Part shown: one piece after another, positions 15,783 to 41,907 of the stretch | Position numbering within the stretch: position 1 is the stretch's first letter | Layout of the letters: each line of letters opens with the position of its first letter | Assembly (NCBI GenBank): GCA_002356455.1 | Contig: AP017968.1 | Coordinates: 3,596,001 to 3,660,000 of the forward strand | Direction of reading: 5' to 3' | Origin: Fusobacterium varium | Lineage (GTDB): Bacteria; Fusobacteriota; Fusobacteriia; Fusobacteriales; Fusobacteriaceae | DNA: 64,000 bases | Program-made: the position numbers and the translations under genes | Notes under the pieces: generated by a model | What the model was told of the DNA's origin: nothing | The model's input: the letters and a program-made list of their open reading frames with translations, nothing else | Database searches by the model: none

Positions 15783-18700
15783 CTAAAAAGCTATACGCAG
15801 ACCTATCTCTCCAACCAATTCATATTCTTCACCAAATTTTTTTGTGCTGCTGGCTAAACTCACTTCACCATATACAGAATATCTGTCCTCATTCCAATTA
15901 TGTGATCCCCCAACACCCAGACTTACCCAAGTATTGTTCAACTTACTCTCATACTCTACACCTGAAATACTTATAGTTGAATCTCCTTTAAACTCATGAC
16001 GAATATTTCCTAATAAATATATTTTGTTACGACTGACTTTACCAGTAGTATTCAGATGACTCTTTTCATAGTTAAGAGCTAGTCCAAGTCTTCCTTCTAG
16101 TCCAGTATAATCTTTTTCATTTATAATTTTACTGTTTTGGATATCAGTAAAATTATCAAAATTCACTCGTGAGTAAGCAATTTGAGCTTGAGGTGTAAGT
16201 GACCAGTGCTCGTCAAGATTAAGAATACGTCCTATTTCAAGACTTAATGCATAACCTGTAGCATGATTTTCTTTTACCTGATGTGAGCTTGAAGTAATTG
16301 TATCAGAATCGATATCACTTTTAAACCAATTATACCAAGCTTGAGCATCAGTATAAAAACCATTATGATTGTACCAAGTCAGAGTAGTTCCAAATCCATG
16401 TCCAGTAGTGGTGATATCTCCATTACCATGTGGTGAGTCTATATCAGACCAAGCTTTACTCATATTACCATTGATTCCAGCAAATAGACGAGAACCTTCA
16501 TCATTTTCATAGATAGGTATGTCCATTCCAACATTAATTCTGCTGAAACGCAGCCTATAAGAACTTTCACTGCCTTTATCAGAATCTAAATCTGGTTTAT
16601 AATAACCTTTCATTCCTTCAACACGCATCCAGACATTTCTTGGATAAATACCAGATTCACCTCTGTCATAGTCTGCTTCCTGTCCACTTTTATCCTTCAA
16701 CCAAGGACGATGACCAACCCGCTGCTCCAATGTAGGCAACTTATTAAGAGTTCCTAAAATCAATGAATATGATTCATAAAGTGGTGTTGCTGGATGGAGT
16801 ACTGGAGTCCCATCACTTTTATTAGGGTTACGCAAGAAAAGTCCTGCCTGATTAGCTGGATTATCATACCAATCTACATCACTCTCCATAACATAGCTGT
16901 AAGCTCCGGCTACAACTGCATTCTGCCCTTTAGCTGTCTTAAAATCTGAAACAAGATGGAAATTTTCATTAAGCTGATTAACTAAATCTGCCTGACTGAC
17001 TCCAGAACCATTACCACGCAGACGAATTATCTCGATCCCATGATTTGTTGTGGCACCATCCCCACCCTGATGAATAACAACTACACCAGTTCCATTTTTG
17101 TCTGAAGCAGAATCAATCACACCATCAATAGTTAATGACCCATGATTGGACTTATCATCCAGAAGTTCAGTATGAATCTCTACTGCAGCACCCTTTTCAG
17201 CTCTGTAATTACCTGCCAAAGTCAGAGGCACAAACTCAGAATTCGTATTATCAAAGGTATTATTAAAACGCTCAAGACCTGGAGCAATGGTACCATTGTT
17301 AATAATAGTAGTGACACTAGAAGTCCTTGGAGCATCTGGATTATTAAGCTGTGCATTCATAGAATTTCCCACAATACCCTGCCCTTCCAATCGTGCTCCA
17401 GCTGCAACAGTCACTTCTGAAGTATTCAATAATCCTTTGGAATTGCTCATAGGTGTATTTGAATCAACAGCATCTAAACGCAGAATTCCTTGATCAATAA
17501 AAGTATGACTGGAATAATACTGATTATTGAGTAATGTCAATACTCCTGCACCAGTTTTATGCAAATCTCCTCCAGTATTGGGAGCAACTCCCAAAGTACT
17601 ATCTTTGATAGTATTCTCTCCTAATATGACAATATTACCATTAGTATTGATTGCTCCACCACCTTTATTTAAAAAAATAGACTGTCCTGAATTTCTGAAA
17701 TCAATATCTGCATCAGCACGTAAGACACCTTGTGTATTATCATTTCCCTCATAATCACCCAGATACACATCCCCTTTTCCTAAACCAAAAGGTGATATTA
17801 CTGCCACTGTGCCATTTTTCACCATCGTATTTCCACTATATGTATTATTGCCATATAACCCTAATATACCAGTACCAGTCTTAACTAATCTAGTATCTCC
17901 CCCTATGCTCTGTCCAATATTTTGTGAAATAAGTCCTGTATATTCTTGTGTGTCAATAGTTACTGATTGCAGCACTGTACTGCCACTGTCACCAATAATC
18001 ACAGGTCTTGAGTTCATAGAAACATTACCATCAAGTTTTAAGGTAGTGTTATCCCACAACTCAAGTGAGCCAACATCTCCTCCAAGAGAGGCATCAGAAT
18101 TAATAGCTAATATTCCTTTTTCAACCCGTGTACCACCTTGGTATAGATTGTTTCCATACAAAGTCAGCATGCCAGAACCAGTTTTTACTAAACCTCCATG
18201 TCCATCTATATTTCCACTAAAAACACCATTATTTCCTTGGGTATTGATTGTCATAGTACTCGATGGTCCTCCAGCCAAAGTGACTGTCCGCCTTGAGTTA
18301 ACATCTCCATCAAGTTGAAGTGTTGTGGTATCATACATTACCAGATGACTGTTGCTATTTCCCAAAGCTGAATCAGAATTAATACTTAATACTCCTTCTT
18401 CAAGAACGGTATCACCTTGATACAGATTATTTCCATACAAAGTCAGCATACCAGAGCCGCTTTTCACTAAACCTCCACGTCCATCTATATTCCCACTAAA
18501 AACACCATTATTTCCTTGGGTATTGATTGTCATAGTACTCGATGGTCCTCCAGCCAAAGTGACTGTTCGCCTTGAGTTAACATCTCCATCAAGTTGAAGT
18601 GTTGTAGTATTGTACATTACTAGACGGCTGCTGGCATTTCCCAAAGCTGAATCAGAATTAATACCTAATATACCTTGTTCAAGAACAGTTCCTCCACTAT

Positions 18701-20201
18701 AACTATTCATACCACTCAAAGTCAAACTACCTGAACCAGTTTTTGTCAAAGCTCCATTTCCTGTAATATTTTGCATAATACTTGTATCATATGTTTGAGT
18801 GTCAATAGTTCCTCCACCTTCCATCAAAGTAATTGCCCGAGTAGATTCCAGATTAAAATTGGCATCAAAACGCAATGTCCCATTAGTAGTTCCTCCTATA
18901 TTGCCCGTACCAAGTATGATGCTGCCAGATGCATTTCCAAGATCACTATCCTTATCTATAACCAGAACCCCCTCATTGATCAGAGTTCCTCCACTGTAGG
19001 TATTATCACTGCTGGAATTCATGGTCAAAGAACCAATTCCACTTTTAACAACCTGCCCAGTCCCACTTATAGCACTTCCAGTGTAACTGTCATCAATAGG
19101 TTGGTCAAAAACCAGCTTACCATTGTTTGTCATATTTGTATTTCCATTTATCCCCTGAGCTTGAACACTTAATACACCATAAACATCAATCCTGATAGTT
19201 CCATTAAACTCTGAGTTAGCTCCCACTAGGGATAACAGACCATTTTCAACAGCCAGAGAATTTACCCCTTTCAACGAACCATTAATAGGTGATGATGGAT
19301 GAATATCCCCAGAAACTGCTGGAACACCTCCAAGAATAGCCCACGAACCCTCTCCTTTCTTAGTAATGGTTGAAAAGTTCAAAACCGAACCAGCCAATGT
19401 AGCTGACTCTCCTAAATTGGCATCCAGAGTGAGATCATTTGTTCCTTTACCTCCATCAACGTTACCAGTAATCTGTGACCCAGGCCCAAAAAGCAAACTG
19501 TCATTACCATTACCAAATTGTAGTGACCCCTTAACAGTTCCATAATTTTCAAACACTAAACCAGGACCACCACCACTACGACTGCTACCAAAAACATTGT
19601 ATCCATCACCTTTGCTTGTTGAAATAGTTCCATAATTTATAACCTTATTTCTATCAGCATCTGCCCCAGAGACAGAGGTATCTTGAAACCATAAAGCTGC
19701 TCCATTGTTGCTGTGAATAGTACCATTATTGGTAATAGTATTTCCAAATCCATGGGCATTAATAGCTTCACCATTGTTAGTGGATCCTAGTTGCTGTACA
19801 GTACCTCCAGCCTCGATAGTCAATTTGGAGTTGCTATTAAACTCAATGACATTGGGTCCACTATTAAAATGACCACCACCACTGGAATTATTGTTTCCCT
19901 CTACAGTGGCATTAGCTTTAACTGTGATATTGCCATCATTATTCAAACTAATTACTGTACCACCATTCTGTGTAACTTTTGTTGGAGTAGTCCCATCACC
20001 AATAGTCACTGTCCAGTTATCATTCGCATTTACTGGACCTGTTCCAATAGAAGAAGATTCATTGACTGTTCCCACAACATTTTTAACCTCACTTGCCCAG
20101 ATATTTCCACTAGATATACAAATAGACATTACACTCATTGTAAGCAGTGGATATAATACTTTCTTTTTCAACTCTTTTTTCCTTATAAATTTTTTTGACA
20201 T
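15783..20201 (-). CDS. large autotransporter adhesin (type V secretion)
   Basis: A 1472-residue protein. I choose the ATG at 20201 (MSKKFIRKKELKKK) behind GAGGTG rather than a far-upstream in-frame start at 20267. A signal peptide runs to about WAS-EVK (~40). The passenger is a repetitive beta-helix with passenger-associated repeats (GGTLINEGVLVIDKDSDLG, GGTVLEQGILGINSDSALG, GGTRVEKGILAINSDASLG). A 93-residue unit is duplicated almost exactly (18190-18330 versus 18469-18609). The last ~280 residues are the autotransporter beta-barrel, from RNVWMRVEGMKGYY to the terminal GEIGLRIAF with the expected C-terminal Phe. Ligand unknown. Confidence 0.92.
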   Translation of the reverse strand: MSKKFIRKKELKKKVLYPLLTMSVMSICISSGNIWASEVKNVVGTVNESSSIGTGPVNANDNWTVTIGDGTTPTKVTQNGGTVISLNNDGNITVKANATVEGNNNSSGGGHFNSGPNVIEFNSNSKLTIEAGGTVQQLGSTNNGEAINAHGFGNTITNNGTIHSNNGAALWFQDTSVSGADADRNKVINYGTISTSKGDGYNVFGSSRSGGGPGLVFENYGTVKGSLQFGNGNDSLLFGPGSQITGNVDGGKGTNDLTLDANLGESATLAGSVLNFSTITKKGEGSWAILGGVPAVSGDIHPSSPINGSLKGVNSLAVENGLLSLVGANSEFNGTIRIDVYGVLSVQAQGINGNTNMTNNGKLVFDQPIDDSYTGSAISGTGQVVKSGIGSLTMNSSSDNTYSGGTLINEGVLVIDKDSDLGNASGSIILGTGNIGGTTNGTLRFDANFNLESTRAITLMEGGGTIDTQTYDTSIMQNITGNGALTKTGSGSLTLSGMNSYSGGTVLEQGILGINSDSALGNASSRLVMYNTTTLQLDGDVNSRRTVTLAGGPSSTMTINTQGNNGVFSGNIDGRGGLVKSGSGMLTLYGNNLYQGDTVLEEGVLSINSDSALGNSNSHLVMYDTTTLQLDGDVNSRRTVTLAGGPSSTMTINTQGNNGVFSGNIDGHGGLVKTGSGMLTLYGNNLYQGGTRVEKGILAINSDASLGGDVGSLELWDNTTLKLDGNVSMNSRPVIIGDSGSTVLQSVTIDTQEYTGLISQNIGQSIGGDTRLVKTGTGILGLYGNNTYSGNTMVKNGTVAVISPFGLGKGDVYLGDYEGNDNTQGVLRADADIDFRNSGQSIFLNKGGGAINTNGNIVILGENTIKDSTLGVAPNTGGDLHKTGAGVLTLLNNQYYSSHTFIDQGILRLDAVDSNTPMSNSKGLLNTSEVTVAAGARLEGQGIVGNSMNAQLNNPDAPRTSSVTTIINNGTIAPGLERFNNTFDNTNSEFVPLTLAGNYRAEKGAAVEIHTELLDDKSNHGSLTIDGVIDSASDKNGTGVVVIHQGGDGATTNHGIEIIRLRGNGSGVSQADLVNQLNENFHLVSDFKTAKGQNAVVAGAYSYVMESDVDWYDNPANQAGLFLRNPNKSDGTPVLHPATPLYESYSLILGTLNKLPTLEQRVGHRPWLKDKSGQEADYDRGESGIYPRNVWMRVEGMKGYYKPDLDSDKGSESSYRLRFSRINVGMDIPIYENDEGSRLFAGINGNMSKAWSDIDSPHGNGDITTTGHGFGTTLTWYNHNGFYTDAQAWYNWFKSDIDSDTITSSSHQVKENHATGYALSLEIGRILNLDEHWSLTPQAQIAYSRVNFDNFTDIQNSKIINEKDYTGLEGRLGLALNYEKSHLNTTGKVSRNKIYLLGNIRHEFKGDSTISISGVEYESKLNNTWVSLGVGGSHNWNEDRYSVYGEVSLASSTKKFGEEYELVGEIGLRIAF

Positions 20202-20758
20202 TATTACAATCACCTCGTATTTTCTATATATTAAAGCTGATATAAAAAATTTAAAGTCAGCCAGCAATTAAACACCTTAAAATAGCTCTTTTAATATTAC
20301 ATACATAATACGATGAAAAATATGTCGTTCCTTTAAAATACATTTTTAATTTGAGTTGAATATATCTCGTAATCAATATATATAAAATAGAACAGTAAAT
20401 AAAATCATGTCTGAAAAAAGTTCGAAAATACTCTATATACTTAAAAATTTCATTTCAAATCTTTTTTCACTCTTTATCAATTTAAGTTAGTAAAATTTTA
20501 TATTCTTCTGGATAAAGAATTTTTATCTTTATCTAAATATTCCAATTTTATATAAAAATATATGCTTATCAAGCATGAATAAGTATTTAATATAGGTATT
20601 TGATATTGAATTATTTCTGCTATATAATAAAGTCATAAATTAACATAAAAATAAATAAATGAAAATTTTTATTTTGTTCAACCCAAGTTATTAACTTAAT
20701 ACAATTGATAAAATCAATTAATATTATAGTTAAAAGTCTTATTATAAGGAGGTTATAA
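20202..20758. promoter_or_regulatory. divergent intergenic region (autotransporter / acetyltransferase)
   Basis: About 560 bp of very AT-rich sequence with no gene. The plus-strand promoter for the acetyltransferase is clear: TTGATA (20600-20605), a 17-bp spacer, TATAAT (20623-20628), and an AAGGAGG site before 20759. Directly upstream of the -35 is AATATAGGTA (20589-20598), matched upstream of the gene at 22802. The autotransporter promoter on the minus strand is not obvious. A TACGA/TCGTA pair near 20310-20380 is too short to call. Confidence 0.7.
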
Positions 20759-25976: not shown

Positions 25977-28900
25977 TTAAAATCTAATTCTTATTCCTAT
26001 ACTTGCCTGCCAGTTTGTTTCAAAGTCACTTCCAAATGTTTTTTCTAAATCATAATATAAATGTGTAGTTCCTGTTTTTCCAACTCTAAACTGTCCGCCT
26101 ATTCCTATCTCTATCCATGTATCTCTTCCACTGTATCTCTTATTTATACTTGCATCTTCTCCAGTTATTTTAGCACCATATTCTCCTGCAAATTCATGTA
26201 ATACTCCTACTTTTATAAAATGGCTGCTCTTATTAAAATCATGCCCTGTATATATTCCTGCTCTTCCTATTACACTTTTTATATCTCTTTGTTCTACTCT
26301 TACTCCACTGTTCATTGAATAATCAGCACCTTTTACATATGTATAATTCATTTGTACATGTGGAGTTACATACCAAGCATTATTTTCATATTTTTTCCCA
26401 TGCTCTAAGCTAAGACTTCCACCCCAAGTATTATAATCTGCTTCCAGTTTTTGATTATTTTCAGTATAATTCTTATAATCATTATCAAGATAGCTGTATT
26501 TAAAAATTATATCTGTATAGCTATTATCATTATATGCAAATGATTTATACATAGAAATTCCCATATTATGATTTTTTCCATCACCGTTTCTAAAGTCTGC
26601 CTTTCCATCTCTTTTATGTACTGCAAATCCAGTAAATACACTTCCTTTTTCTGTTTCTTTTCTTTTATCATATCCTACTTGAAGCATATTATAGTCATTC
26701 TTAAATTTTCCAGATGATTTATCATGTTCCATTTTCCCAGATACTATTCTTACCCATACTCCATTTTCAGAGGTATAATCACGTATTTCTCCAAGTCTTT
26801 TATGAATAGTATCTAATTCTAAACGTGATAATGCAGCATTCATGTAGTTCAAAGTAAGATCTTCTTCTACTTTTTCAACTACTTCTCCTTCTTTTTTACT
26901 TATTCCAGTTACATACCAATTATTTTCATTTTCTTTGTTATTTTCACCATCCCCGTGTACATTTTCTTCAATTGACAGTGTATAATTATATATATTTGAT
27001 ATATCAGAAAATTCACTTCCTTCAAATGTTACATTTTTATCAGAAGCAGCTATCATGATAGAAGAATTTTCTTTATCTGAAAAATTATGATTTACCAAAT
27101 CACTAATAGAAGTTTTCCCTGCCTGTACATAGTTTTTTTGTGATGTATCTGCCTTTTTTATATAGATATAATCTGTTTTATTCCCAGTTTGGTCTTTGTC
27201 TTCTGGAGAGATATCTAGGATATATTTTCCTCCCTCACCTGTTGTATTATCAATTGATAATGTTTGTTTTCCATTGATAGTTTCCCCTTTATAATTCTGT
27301 GCCATATCCACTATCCCATTTTCTATATTAAAATTTGTTACTGTACTATCTTGTGGAATATACCAAGCTGCATTATTTTTTAATCCTAAATTAAATACAC
27401 CCCCATTTTCTTGAACGGATCTTCCTTCTAAATACGAATCCTCAGTATCTAACAAGATATCAGTTATAGAGCCAGCTTTTGTTGAAAATATAAGTCCTTG
27501 AATTTTTTTGTTGTATCCTTCATCAGTTATTGATACATTTCCATTATCATTATATACTGCATATCCATCTGAATATATGCTAGTTCCTCCATTAAGTTTT
27601 ATAGAACCTGTTTTATTAGATACTCCTATTACAAAACTAGTATTTTCCCCTATGGCTGTTATTATACTTCCATCTTCTATTGTTACCTCTGAAGATGAAC
27701 CATCATTATGTACTGCTCTTATTTGATTGGTATCTTTTCCTGCTACACTTATTTCAGAATTTTTTCCTATATTTAATATTGAATCTCCTTTATTATACAC
27801 TGAATAAGCATAATTTTTTTGACTTTTTGAGTTTAGAATTGAAGATATTTTTACTCCATTCCCTATATCCATTTTTCCACCATTATTATTATATAACCCC
27901 ATTACAAAACCTGTATTTTCTCCTATAGCTGTTATTGTTCCTCCATCTTCTATTGTTACCTCTGAAGATGAACCATCATTATGTACTGCTCTTATTTGAT
28001 TGGCATCTTTTCCTTCTACACTTATTTCAGAATTTTTTCCTATATTTAATATTGAATCTCCTTTATTATACACTGAATAAGCATAATTTTTTTGTTCTTT
28101 TGAATTGATAGTTGAAAATATTTTTACTCCATCTCCTATGTTTAATTTTGAATCCTTGGTATTATAAACTCCATACACATTATCTTTTTCCTTTTCTGAA
28201 TTAAGTATTGAAATTATTTTTACTCCATTTCCTATATTCATCTTTCCACCATTATTATTATACAATCCCATTATAAATACGATATTTTCCCCTATAGCTG
28301 TTATAGTTCCTCCATCTTTTATTGTTACCTCTGAAGATAAACCATCATTATATACCGCTGATATTTGCCTTGTATCGGTCCCTTCTGCACTTATTTGAGA
28401 ATTTTTTCCTATATTTAATATTGAATTTTCTATATTATATACTGAATAAGCAGAATTCTTTTGTTCTTTTGAATTGATAGTTGAAGATATTTTTACTCCA
28501 TTTCCTATATCCAATTTTGACCCTTTAGTATTATAAGCTCCATATACATTATCTTTTTCCTTTTCTGAATTAAGTATTGAAATTATTTTTACTCCATTCC
28601 CTATATTCATTTTTCCACTATTATACAACCCCATTACAAAACCTGTATTTTCCCCTATAGCTGTTATAGTTCCTCCATCTTCTATTGTTACCTCTGAAGA
28701 TAAACCATCATTACATACTGTATATACTTTACTTGCATCTGTTCCTTCCGCACTTATTTGAGAATTTTTTCCTATATTCATTTTTCCACTATTATTATTC
28801 AAACCCATTACAGAACTAGCATTTGTTCCTTTTGCACTTATTGCTGCATTATTTCCTATATTTATTTTTCCATTCGCCATATTATAAACTGCATAAGATT

Positions 28901-29702
28901 GCCCTGATACTCCACTAGAAAGAGTTATTTCTGTTTCCAATATTAACCCATTTCCAATTGTTATTGTATCTCCCAACAACTGATAAATTCCCAGTGCCCA
29001 ATGACCATTTTTAATTTCACTTTTTGCCTCTCTTACTTCTGCTCTAATTTTTACATCATCTCCAATAAAAACATTACTTTTATTAGAAAATCCAGTAGAA
29101 TCAACAGAAATTCCCACTGCAATTCCTGTTGAATTAGAAACATTTATCTCGCTTCCTTTTCCAAAATAAGTTGAAGAGCTGTACTTAAGCTCTGCACCAT
29201 AAGCTGTTGAAGATGAGCCAACTTCTTTTGTATTTATTAGAACATTTATTTTAGTGTTTTCTCCTAAAGTTAATTTTCCTTGATTAGTAACCCCAACAAG
29301 AGTTGTTGTATTTCCACCTAATTCTCCTGTAGTAACATTTATTTTCAGCCCATCTGACATATAAACTTCATTTTTAGTTCCAATATTCTCCAATCCTTTT
29401 CCCCAAATAATGCCAGTTGCTCCTCCCCTTTTCTTTTTTAATGTTGTATTTATTTCTTTTATATTAACTGTAAGATTTTCTGAATTTTCTATTTTTAATC
29501 CATTCACTTCTTTATAGGCTCCATGATTTATATCAGACACATCTATTACTTCATTACTTTTATTTTTAATTTCTATTCCCGTTTCTATATCTTGTAAATT
29601 TTCTTCACTATATCCTATATTTTTAACAATTATAAATAAAAGTAAAATTCTCAATGTTATTTCTATTTTTTCTTTAACCCTCTTTTTATTATCTTTTTTC
29701 AT
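25977..29702 (-). CDS. autotransporter surface protein with long internal repeats
   Basis: A 1241-residue type V secretion protein. The N-terminus is basic then hydrophobic, with cleavage likely near GYS-EEN. The passenger is built of beta-helix repeats of the form ILNIGKNSQISAEG and GGTITAIGEN. A ~91-residue unit recurs about four times between 27.6 and 28.8 kb, with the copies at 27674 and 27947 nearly identical in DNA. The C-terminal barrel runs from about GVWVRIVSGKMEHD to ASIGIRIRF with terminal Phe. Upstream lies an inverted-repeat-flanked promoter, so expression may be phase variable. Function (adhesion, aggregation) is not visible from sequence. Confidence 0.9.
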   Translation of the reverse strand: MKKDNKKRVKEKIEITLRILLLFIIVKNIGYSEENLQDIETGIEIKNKSNEVIDVSDINHGAYKEVNGLKIENSENLTVNIKEINTTLKKKRGGATGIIWGKGLENIGTKNEVYMSDGLKINVTTGELGGNTTTLVGVTNQGKLTLGENTKINVLINTKEVGSSSTAYGAELKYSSSTYFGKGSEINVSNSTGIAVGISVDSTGFSNKSNVFIGDDVKIRAEVREAKSEIKNGHWALGIYQLLGDTITIGNGLILETEITLSSGVSGQSYAVYNMANGKINIGNNAAISAKGTNASSVMGLNNNSGKMNIGKNSQISAEGTDASKVYTVCNDGLSSEVTIEDGGTITAIGENTGFVMGLYNSGKMNIGNGVKIISILNSEKEKDNVYGAYNTKGSKLDIGNGVKISSTINSKEQKNSAYSVYNIENSILNIGKNSQISAEGTDTRQISAVYNDGLSSEVTIKDGGTITAIGENIVFIMGLYNNNGGKMNIGNGVKIISILNSEKEKDNVYGVYNTKDSKLNIGDGVKIFSTINSKEQKNYAYSVYNKGDSILNIGKNSEISVEGKDANQIRAVHNDGSSSEVTIEDGGTITAIGENTGFVMGLYNNNGGKMDIGNGVKISSILNSKSQKNYAYSVYNKGDSILNIGKNSEISVAGKDTNQIRAVHNDGSSSEVTIEDGSIITAIGENTSFVIGVSNKTGSIKLNGGTSIYSDGYAVYNDNGNVSITDEGYNKKIQGLIFSTKAGSITDILLDTEDSYLEGRSVQENGGVFNLGLKNNAAWYIPQDSTVTNFNIENGIVDMAQNYKGETINGKQTLSIDNTTGEGGKYILDISPEDKDQTGNKTDYIYIKKADTSQKNYVQAGKTSISDLVNHNFSDKENSSIMIAASDKNVTFEGSEFSDISNIYNYTLSIEENVHGDGENNKENENNWYVTGISKKEGEVVEKVEEDLTLNYMNAALSRLELDTIHKRLGEIRDYTSENGVWVRIVSGKMEHDKSSGKFKNDYNMLQVGYDKRKETEKGSVFTGFAVHKRDGKADFRNGDGKNHNMGISMYKSFAYNDNSYTDIIFKYSYLDNDYKNYTENNQKLEADYNTWGGSLSLEHGKKYENNAWYVTPHVQMNYTYVKGADYSMNSGVRVEQRDIKSVIGRAGIYTGHDFNKSSHFIKVGVLHEFAGEYGAKITGEDASINKRYSGRDTWIEIGIGGQFRVGKTGTTHLYYDLEKTFGSDFETNWQASIGIRIRF

Positions 29703-29775
29703 ACTCTTTCCCTCTCAATATTTGTTTATTAGAAACATTCTCTAAAGCAATAAAAAATACCAAATATTCTCTTTT

Positions 29776-29922
29776 ATATAATAAGGCGAACAATAAATAG
29801 CCTTAAGTCGTAATTTTAAAGAGTTAGTTTTTTTCACTTTGTATTTTTTCAAATATCTAAATCTTGATTTTTTAAAATTTAAAGGGTATAATGAGTAGTA
29901 TAAAGTGTTCGCCTTATTATAT
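29776..29922. repeat. candidate invertible promoter element 1 (17-bp inverted repeats)
   Basis: Perfect 17-bp inverted repeats ATATAATAAGGCGAACA (29776-29792) and its complement (29906-29922) enclose 113 bp. Inside, on the plus strand, is TTGATT (29864-29869), a 17-bp spacer and TATAAT (29887-29892). The gene start of the autotransporter lies 74 bp left of the element and reads leftwards, so as drawn the promoter points away from it. Inversion would aim it at the gene. No recombinase gene is in the window. Confidence 0.72.
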
Positions 29923-30002
29923 TAACACGAATACTTTTGTTTTTTAGATTTTAAGGTATTTTTCTTTTTAGATAAAATTGAAAATTTCAATATAAATAAT
30001 TA

Positions 30003-30034
30003 AAAAAAGCTGTCATAAAAACAGCTTTTTTAAT
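30003..30034. terminator. bidirectional terminator right of element 1
   Basis: AAAAAAGCTGT / ACAGCTTTTTT with a 7-base loop and A/T runs on both sides. It would stop the rightward transcript from the promoter inside element 1 after ~135 bases, and leftward read-through from the ferredoxin side. Confidence 0.8.
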
Positions 30035-30116: not shown

Positions 30117-30287
30117 TTACTCAGCTGATATAGCTGAAACAGGACATCCCCCTGCACAAGCTCCACAGTCAACACAAGCATCTGATATTCCATATTTTCC
30201 ATCATCAGTTGCAGCTATTGCTCCTACTGGACAAGTTCCTTCACAAGCTCCACATCCTATACAAGCGTCTTTATCTATTACGTGCAT
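30117..30287 (-). CDS. 2[4Fe-4S] ferredoxin
   Basis: A 56-residue clostridial-type ferredoxin. It begins MHVIDKDACIGCGACEGTCPVGAI and has a second motif CVDCGACAGGCPVSAIS. Both CxxCxxCxxxCP motifs are intact, so two low-potential 4Fe-4S clusters are expected. It carries electrons in anaerobic fermentation (pyruvate:ferredoxin oxidoreductase, hydrogenase, Rnf). It starts at an ATG after AGGAGGG. It is monocistronic with a consensus promoter and a terminator. Confidence 0.96.
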   Translation of the reverse strand: MHVIDKDACIGCGACEGTCPVGAIAATDDGKYGISDACVDCGACAGGCPVSAISAE

Positions 30288-41333: not shown

Positions 41334-41630
41334 TTATTCATTACCTGTTAATGCTTCATTTATTCTCTCTCCTAATCCTTTTCCTTCTCTAAATTTTATG
41401 ACTTCTTTAGATTCTGTATAAAAATGCCCTTCTTTAGTTGGAACAGAAACTTTTCTAGGAGCTACTTTTTTCTTAGTAAATACTCCCCAGTCTTTTAATG
41501 TTACTTTTCCATAAATATCTAGTGTTTTAAAAAGAGCATTCCAAAAAAGTTCTATTCTTTCTTCCGCCTGTTCTTTATTTTTTAATCCCATCCTTTTTTT
41601 ATAAAGCTTCACAAACTCTGACTCTCTCAT
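41334..41630 (-). CDS. HU-family DNA-binding protein
   Basis: A 98-residue HU/IHF-like protein. SEFVKLYKKRMGLKNKEQAEERIELFWNALFKTLD forms the dimerisation helices and VTLKDWGVFTKKKVAPRKVSVPT the start of the DNA-binding arm, whose body (KEGHFYTESKEVIKFREGKGLGERINEAL) is atypical: the usual GRNP..G..I tip is replaced. It is a divergent HU, possibly with a specialised role. The only strong promoter upstream lies inside an inverted-repeat element and points away. Confidence 0.82.
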   Translation of the reverse strand: MRESEFVKLYKKRMGLKNKEQAEERIELFWNALFKTLDIYGKVTLKDWGVFTKKKVAPRKVSVPTKEGHFYTESKEVIKFREGKGLGERINEALTGNE

Positions 41631-41665: not shown

Positions 41666-41907
41666 AAAACTTCGCATTTATACAATAACACGAACTGTTG
41701 TATTTATACCTTAAAATCATGTTTTTTAGAGAAGCTGTATTGTGAGGAATAAAGTTTTTTTATTGACAATTAAAAATAAAAATAGTAAAATTTGTATTAA
41801 TAATATCTTAAATTCTTAGTTTTAAGTCTATACAGTGTTTGTGTCACATATGAATATAATGTACTCAAACAGTAAAACTACGCCTTATTGTATAAATGCG
41901 AAGTTTT
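41666..41907. repeat. candidate invertible promoter element 2 (23-bp inverted repeats)
   Basis: Perfect 23-bp inverted repeats (41666-41688, AAAACTTCGCATTTATACAA plus TAA; complement at 41885-41907) enclose 196 bp. Inside on the plus strand is TTGACA (41763-41768), a 17-bp spacer, TAAAAT (41786-41791). It points away from the HU-like gene, whose start is 36 bp left of the element, and toward the tRNA cluster in antisense. Inversion would aim it at the HU-like gene. Confidence 0.68.

Follow-up and report, generated by a model that had tools for sequence, protein, structure and literature searches.

The window analyzed here, a 64-kb stretch of the Fusobacterium varium Fv113-g1 genome, contains an open reading frame of 1241 aa (25977 to 29702, minus strand) that matches autotransporter profiles in both Pfam (Autotransporter; E = 1e-35) and NCBIfam (autotrans_barl; E = 2e-51) and has a GAGAGGGAAAG ribosome-binding region ahead of its ATG. 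The gene reads leftward from an ATG separated by 74 bp from a perfect 17-bp inverted repeat to its right (ATATAATAAGGCGAACA, left arm, 29776 to 29792, and TGTTCGCCTTATTATAT, right arm, 29906 to 29922); the two arms are exact reverse complements and enclose 113 bp. Within the repeat is a consensus promoter (TTGATT-17-TATAAT; 29864 to 29892, plus strand) that points rightward, away from the autotransporter, an orientation referred to here as OFF. The repeats, the promoter, and the identity and position of the autotransporter were all found as an earlier note on this DNA had described them. Farther to the right, a bidirectional intrinsic terminator (30003 to 30031; -11.1 kcal/mol, z = -5.3) stands ahead of a ferredoxin-like gene with two cysteine clusters (30117 to 30287, minus strand) that is convergent with the promoter, which suggests that the promoter serves no gene in its OFF orientation. 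Perfect inverted repeats of at least 17 bp with a loop of 50 to 300 bp are expected 0.017 times per 64-kb window (60 simulated windows, first-order Markov), compared with two places in the real window, at 29776 to 29922 and at a related element (41666 to 41907).

Alignment with 11 other arms (from six Fv113-g1 elements) and comparison with the set of 83 elements described below place a 26-bp putative recombination site at each end of the first element. The left site, ATTCTCTTT-TATATAAT-AAGGCGAAC (outer arm, 8-bp spacer, and inner arm), spans 29766 to 29791 on the plus strand, and the right site, ATTCGTGTT-AATATAAT-AAGGCGAAC, lies in inverted orientation at 29907 to 29932 on the minus strand. 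The interval of 29776 to 29922 proposed in the earlier note therefore holds for the perfect repeat and the predicted invertible segment but falls short of the full element, since the sites extend beyond it on both sides, to about 29766 and 29932. The full element (29766 to 29932) belongs to a 167-bp length class. The six elements, which were aligned by hand, share the site GTTCTCTTT-TATATAAT-AARGCGAAC, in which two 9-bp arms flank an 8-bp spacer, and each pair of sites encloses a TTG-led -35 element at 17-bp spacing from TATAAT. This arrangement of inverted arms around a spacer (9-8-9) is the core-site layout of tyrosine recombinases. The sites themselves are imperfect palindromes.

The second element in the window (41666 to 41907) has a 23-bp perfect inverted repeat and belongs to the same site family, with sites CTTCGCATT-TATACAAT-AACACGAAC and CTTCGCATT-TATACAAT-AAGGCGTAG. 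Its interior promoter (TTGACA-17-TAAAAT, identified by eye) is directed rightward and faces away from a lone gene for an HU/IHF-like DNA-binding protein (98 aa, PF00216; 41334 to 41630, minus strand) just to the left of the element, and it is thus also OFF.

Four Fusobacterium genomes contain 83 paired elements of this family: 26 in Fv113-g1 (G000), 14 in G008, 26 in G009, and 17 in G010. Common to them is a 26-bp site (GTTCNNNTT-8-bp spacer-AARGCGAAC), and most pairs enclose a TTGAxx-17-TATAAT promoter. With up to 3 mismatches allowed, the 26-bp pattern has 46 matches per strand in Fv113-g1, and its reversed control has 0. The set of 83 is a lower bound, because the element at 41666 to 41907 and another, L018 (G000 C1:2835352-2835572), fit the family but are absent from the pairs; judged from sequence, the putative Fv113-g1 regulon would comprise at least 27 elements. 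The related element L018 has almost palindromic sites, and its promoter (TTGACA-17-TATTAT) is directed away from the gene for a bacterial sugar transferase. Matches in G013 proved to be one near-identical repeat rather than family elements, those in G042 were rejected as chance, and single ribosome-binding-site-like AAGGAGAACA matches (L014 and L017) were rejected as elements. A scan of a contig database gave two matches (Yersinia and Parabeggiatoa) that were judged to be chance, and searches of IMG/VR, plasmids, and phages gave no element matches.

The spacers vary among elements (ATGTATA, ATACATA, ATATAAT, ATCTATA, and others). When sites were picked on their arms only, blind to the spacer, the 7-nt spacers were identical within 54 of 59 distinct pairs, against 9.5 expected and a maximum of 20 in 20,000 shuffles, which ignore relatedness. 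The contrast with the variable outer-arm positions, which agree within pairs in only 31%, is internal to the data set. Identical spacers are a requirement of strand exchange by tyrosine recombinases.

Inversion itself is visible at two loci, among comparisons limited to element pairs with homologous flanks. The flanks of G008:2099442 are 83% and 89% identical to those of its paralogue G008:2279891 in the same direction, whereas the interiors are 42% identical as found and 88% identical when one is inverted, with the switch falling at the sites. The promoter of G008:2099442 (TTGATT-17-TATATA, identified by eye) faces the adjacent gene (ON). Similarly, the interior of G009:958543 matches its paralogues at 0.41 to 0.65 as found and at 0.74 to 0.79 when inverted, with an upstream flank that aligns clearly and a downstream flank that aligns weakly, and its promoter faces its autotransporter (ON). 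The inverted segments between sites in these two ON loci indicate that inversion has occurred in nature. By length, the two examples belong to other classes (196 bp and 224 bp) than the window element (167 bp), with which they share the site. Most other pairs of opposite orientation set an autotransporter element against an HU-gene element and were not counted as evidence of inversion. Of the features of an inverton, a promoter between inverted repeats is present in the family, and inversion between homologous loci is seen in members other than the window copy.

Alternatively, the repeats could serve as operators on either side of a fixed promoter, bound without any inversion by a regulator that bends or loops DNA, such as an HU/IHF-like protein. 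The palindromic character of the sites, the HU/IHF-like genes that often follow elements, and the near-uniform orientation at autotransporters (below) are compatible with such a role. However, no gene at this locus would be served by a promoter fixed in the direction opposite to the autotransporter, and both the spacer identity within pairs and the two inverted paralogues point to recombination, making an operator role highly improbable. We conclude from the sequence comparisons that 29766 to 29932 is very probably an invertible promoter that stands OFF in the assembly, one output of a genome-wide regulon. The window copy itself would be expected to flip at present, and its flipping to alter expression of the autotransporter.

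The window locus is conserved in one relative. At the syntenic locus in G009 (L079), the autotransporter is 57% identical, the ferredoxin neighbor has 91% DNA identity, and the element is kept; with one genome per species compared, the orthologous element is likewise OFF. The claim of the earlier note that the autotransporter is phase variable and OFF in this assembly thus gains support from other loci, through spacer covariation, the two inverted paralogous loci, and conservation in G009.

At least 52 standard-size autotransporters have an element directly upstream in the four genomes (15 in Fv113-g1 and 8, 16, and 13 in the other three, among the Pfam matches listed). The promoter is OFF at 50 of these 52, including that of the window, and ON at 2, again among the matches listed; 49 of the OFF assignments were made by script, and G008:2279891 was reassigned from its alignment with the inverted copy. 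Giant autotransporters (2.7 to 3.6 kaa) differ, with none of the 43 among the matches listed assigned an element within 1.6 kb. A second autotransporter in the window (15783 to 20267; 1494 aa, with PATR repeats) also lacks an assigned upstream element. Some Fv113-g1 elements are nearly identical copies, which might suggest MITE-like dispersed repeats that carry an outward promoter by chance, but the placement of 52 elements just upstream of autotransporter starts, 50 of them in one orientation, among the matches listed, is nonrandom, and the repeat ends covary in spacer. It is therefore very doubtful that the family consists of such repeats.

Elements also precede genes for an MBOAT acyltransferase, outer membrane beta-barrel proteins, heptosyltransferase-like proteins, and permeases, and a GGDEF/CHASE gene is found at some distance from one element. 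Six elements lie before HU/IHF-like genes outside autotransporter operons (L013, L045, L074, L078, L080, and L157), and at all six the promoter faces the gene; four of the six loci have a PF00216 match, and at the remainder the first gene was assigned by sequence similarity. Other HU-like genes after elements, including that at 41334 to 41630, are OFF. The near-uniform OFF orientation at autotransporters versus ON at these six loci suggests that orientation is biased by locus, which may reflect bias of the enzyme, selection in culture, or locking. HU/IHF-like genes downstream of elements are tandem in at least two cases, and a gene for a hybrid histidine kinase or Hpt protein is found near them in L013 and L080.

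In Fv113-g1, the OFF orientation holds for each of the 15 elements assigned to autotransporters among the matches listed, so that this strain taken alone offers no sign of switching. This would be expected if the elements were once invertible but are now locked OFF, with the autotransporters silent or on other promoters; RNA-seq of Fv113-g1 reports expression of some autotransporters (PMC5720691), not tied to elements. Against locking, a recombinase has been kept intact and the paired sites still match well, and a scan between the window element and its gene revealed no convincing promoter. We consider permanent locking unlikely. If the elements do invert, the strong OFF bias of each autotransporter switch in sequenced cultures suggests that cells would differ in the surface proteins that they display.

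Fv113-g1 encodes several tyrosine recombinases of the size of FimB and FimE, among them two types that are 76% identical to each other: C1:1631168 (L026) and C1:3156432 (L022). Among 61 family genomes, a clade of ~198-aa tyrosine recombinases is found in exactly the four genomes that bear elements (G000, G008, G009, and G010); its members are 73 to 98% identical, and the best match in the other family genomes is at most 57% identical. All four genomes have an intact recombinase of the L022 type (80 to 91% identical among themselves), the gene for which is duplicated in Fv113-g1 together with its neighbors (C1:3156432 and 3237238; L039 and L040), with identical proteins. In contrast, the L026 type is present in G000, G008, and G009 but only as a pseudogene in G010, despite the 17 elements of that genome. 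The L022 type is therefore preferred as the candidate invertase, on a correlation across four related genomes. It has 198 aa with a Phage_integrase domain only (PF00589; E = 1e-21), and the R..HxxR..H..Y motif is present, as judged from alignment to a XerC-like structure.

It is also conceivable, though we think it the lesser possibility, that inversion is real but is carried out by the C1:1631168 type or by another recombinase; this would otherwise be compatible with the main reading. Both types occur in G000, G008, and G009 and are similar in sequence, and Fv113-g1 has six resolvase-family genes. The site layout favors a tyrosine recombinase over a serine recombinase of the Mpi type, and the loss of the C1:1631168 type in G010 despite its elements argues against that enzyme, as does its association with a private pair of sites. 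The gene lies in a cassette of ~0.8 kb (G000 C1:1631079-1631888; L041, L172, L173, and L177) bounded by a private 26-bp repeat, of which every one of the four genomes has a single pair. With the flanks as reference, the cassette runs one way in G000 and G008 and the opposite way in G009 and G010. The L026-type cassette probably inverts itself.

In the proposed mechanism, a short, Fim-sized tyrosine recombinase encoded elsewhere would act in trans on the two inverted 26-bp sites, and recombination between them, each with its two 9-bp arms and 8-bp spacer, would flip the promoter. In the OFF orientation the promoter would fire rightward into the terminator, ahead of the ferredoxin gene. In the ON orientation the autotransporter would be transcribed leftward, with a predicted transcription start near 29799 and a 5' leader of ~97 nt. 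The predicted outputs of the regulon are autotransporters, HU/IHF-like proteins, and other envelope genes. We tentatively suggest a wider network, which is possible but on balance improbable, in which the HU/IHF-like DNA-bending proteins are switched outputs that feed back on inversion bias and the second recombinase sits in its self-inverting cassette, the two jointly setting the number of autotransporters displayed.

A closely comparable system is the Mpi regulon of Bacteroides fragilis, in which one serine-recombinase invertase flips many dispersed promoters of surface genes. The elements described here resemble it in being many, dispersed, short, putatively invertible promoters with a common inverted repeat, in their association with surface structures, and in being served, probably, by one enzyme in trans. 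They differ from it in that the site layout and the candidate enzyme are of the tyrosine type, in occurring in a different phylum, and in having autotransporters and HU/IHF-like genes, instead of capsule loci, as their targets. FimB and FimE, which act on fimS in Escherichia coli, are recombinases of ~200 aa with a catalytic domain only, as is the candidate here. Like these elements, fimS can show a strong directional bias toward OFF (PMC6083910), although its site sequence, number of loci, and class of target are different. In the ipuS/UpaE switch of uropathogenic E. coli CFT073, tyrosine recombinases of the Fim family invert a 260-bp promoter segment located upstream of an operon that contains genes for an autotransporter and a regulator (PMC6083910). 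The F. varium elements share with ipuS a short promoter segment upstream of an autotransporter and, in the candidate, a Fim-type tyrosine recombinase; however, ipuS is a single locus with 7-bp repeats that adjoins its recombinases, whereas F. varium has dozens of loci, a 26-bp site, and a distant candidate.

We found no report of fusobacterial invertible promoters in the open-access literature searched. The paper describing Fv113-g1 lists 44 autotransporters, and its main text does not contain the words invert, phase var, recombinase, or promoter (PMC5720691). The elements would thus extend such a regulon to a new phylum, where none was found described in the open-access literature, and would tie HU/IHF-like genes to DNA inversion. 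Work on colitis and colorectal cancer examines Fusobacterium autotransporters as adhesins, and in F. varium the set of surface proteins may be reshuffled from one cell to the next. Should most standard F. varium autotransporters be switched in this way and be OFF during culture, they may escape notice in bulk studies of expression or binding with a single clone. Why one genome keeps ~40 autotransporters would also become a testable question, with the genes forming a repertoire of which each cell shows few.

Some of the longer elements depart from the common structure. The two 212-bp elements of L170 (G000 C1:3885766 and 3891462), like some other longer elements, have no convincing promoter; the L170 elements sit upstream of paralogous outer membrane beta-barrel genes. 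In L085:9491-9633 (G010 C1:1564473-1564649), the two arms have unlike spacers (atacata and atctata), and the right part of the element has its match in a different element, a pattern that recombination between two loci would produce.
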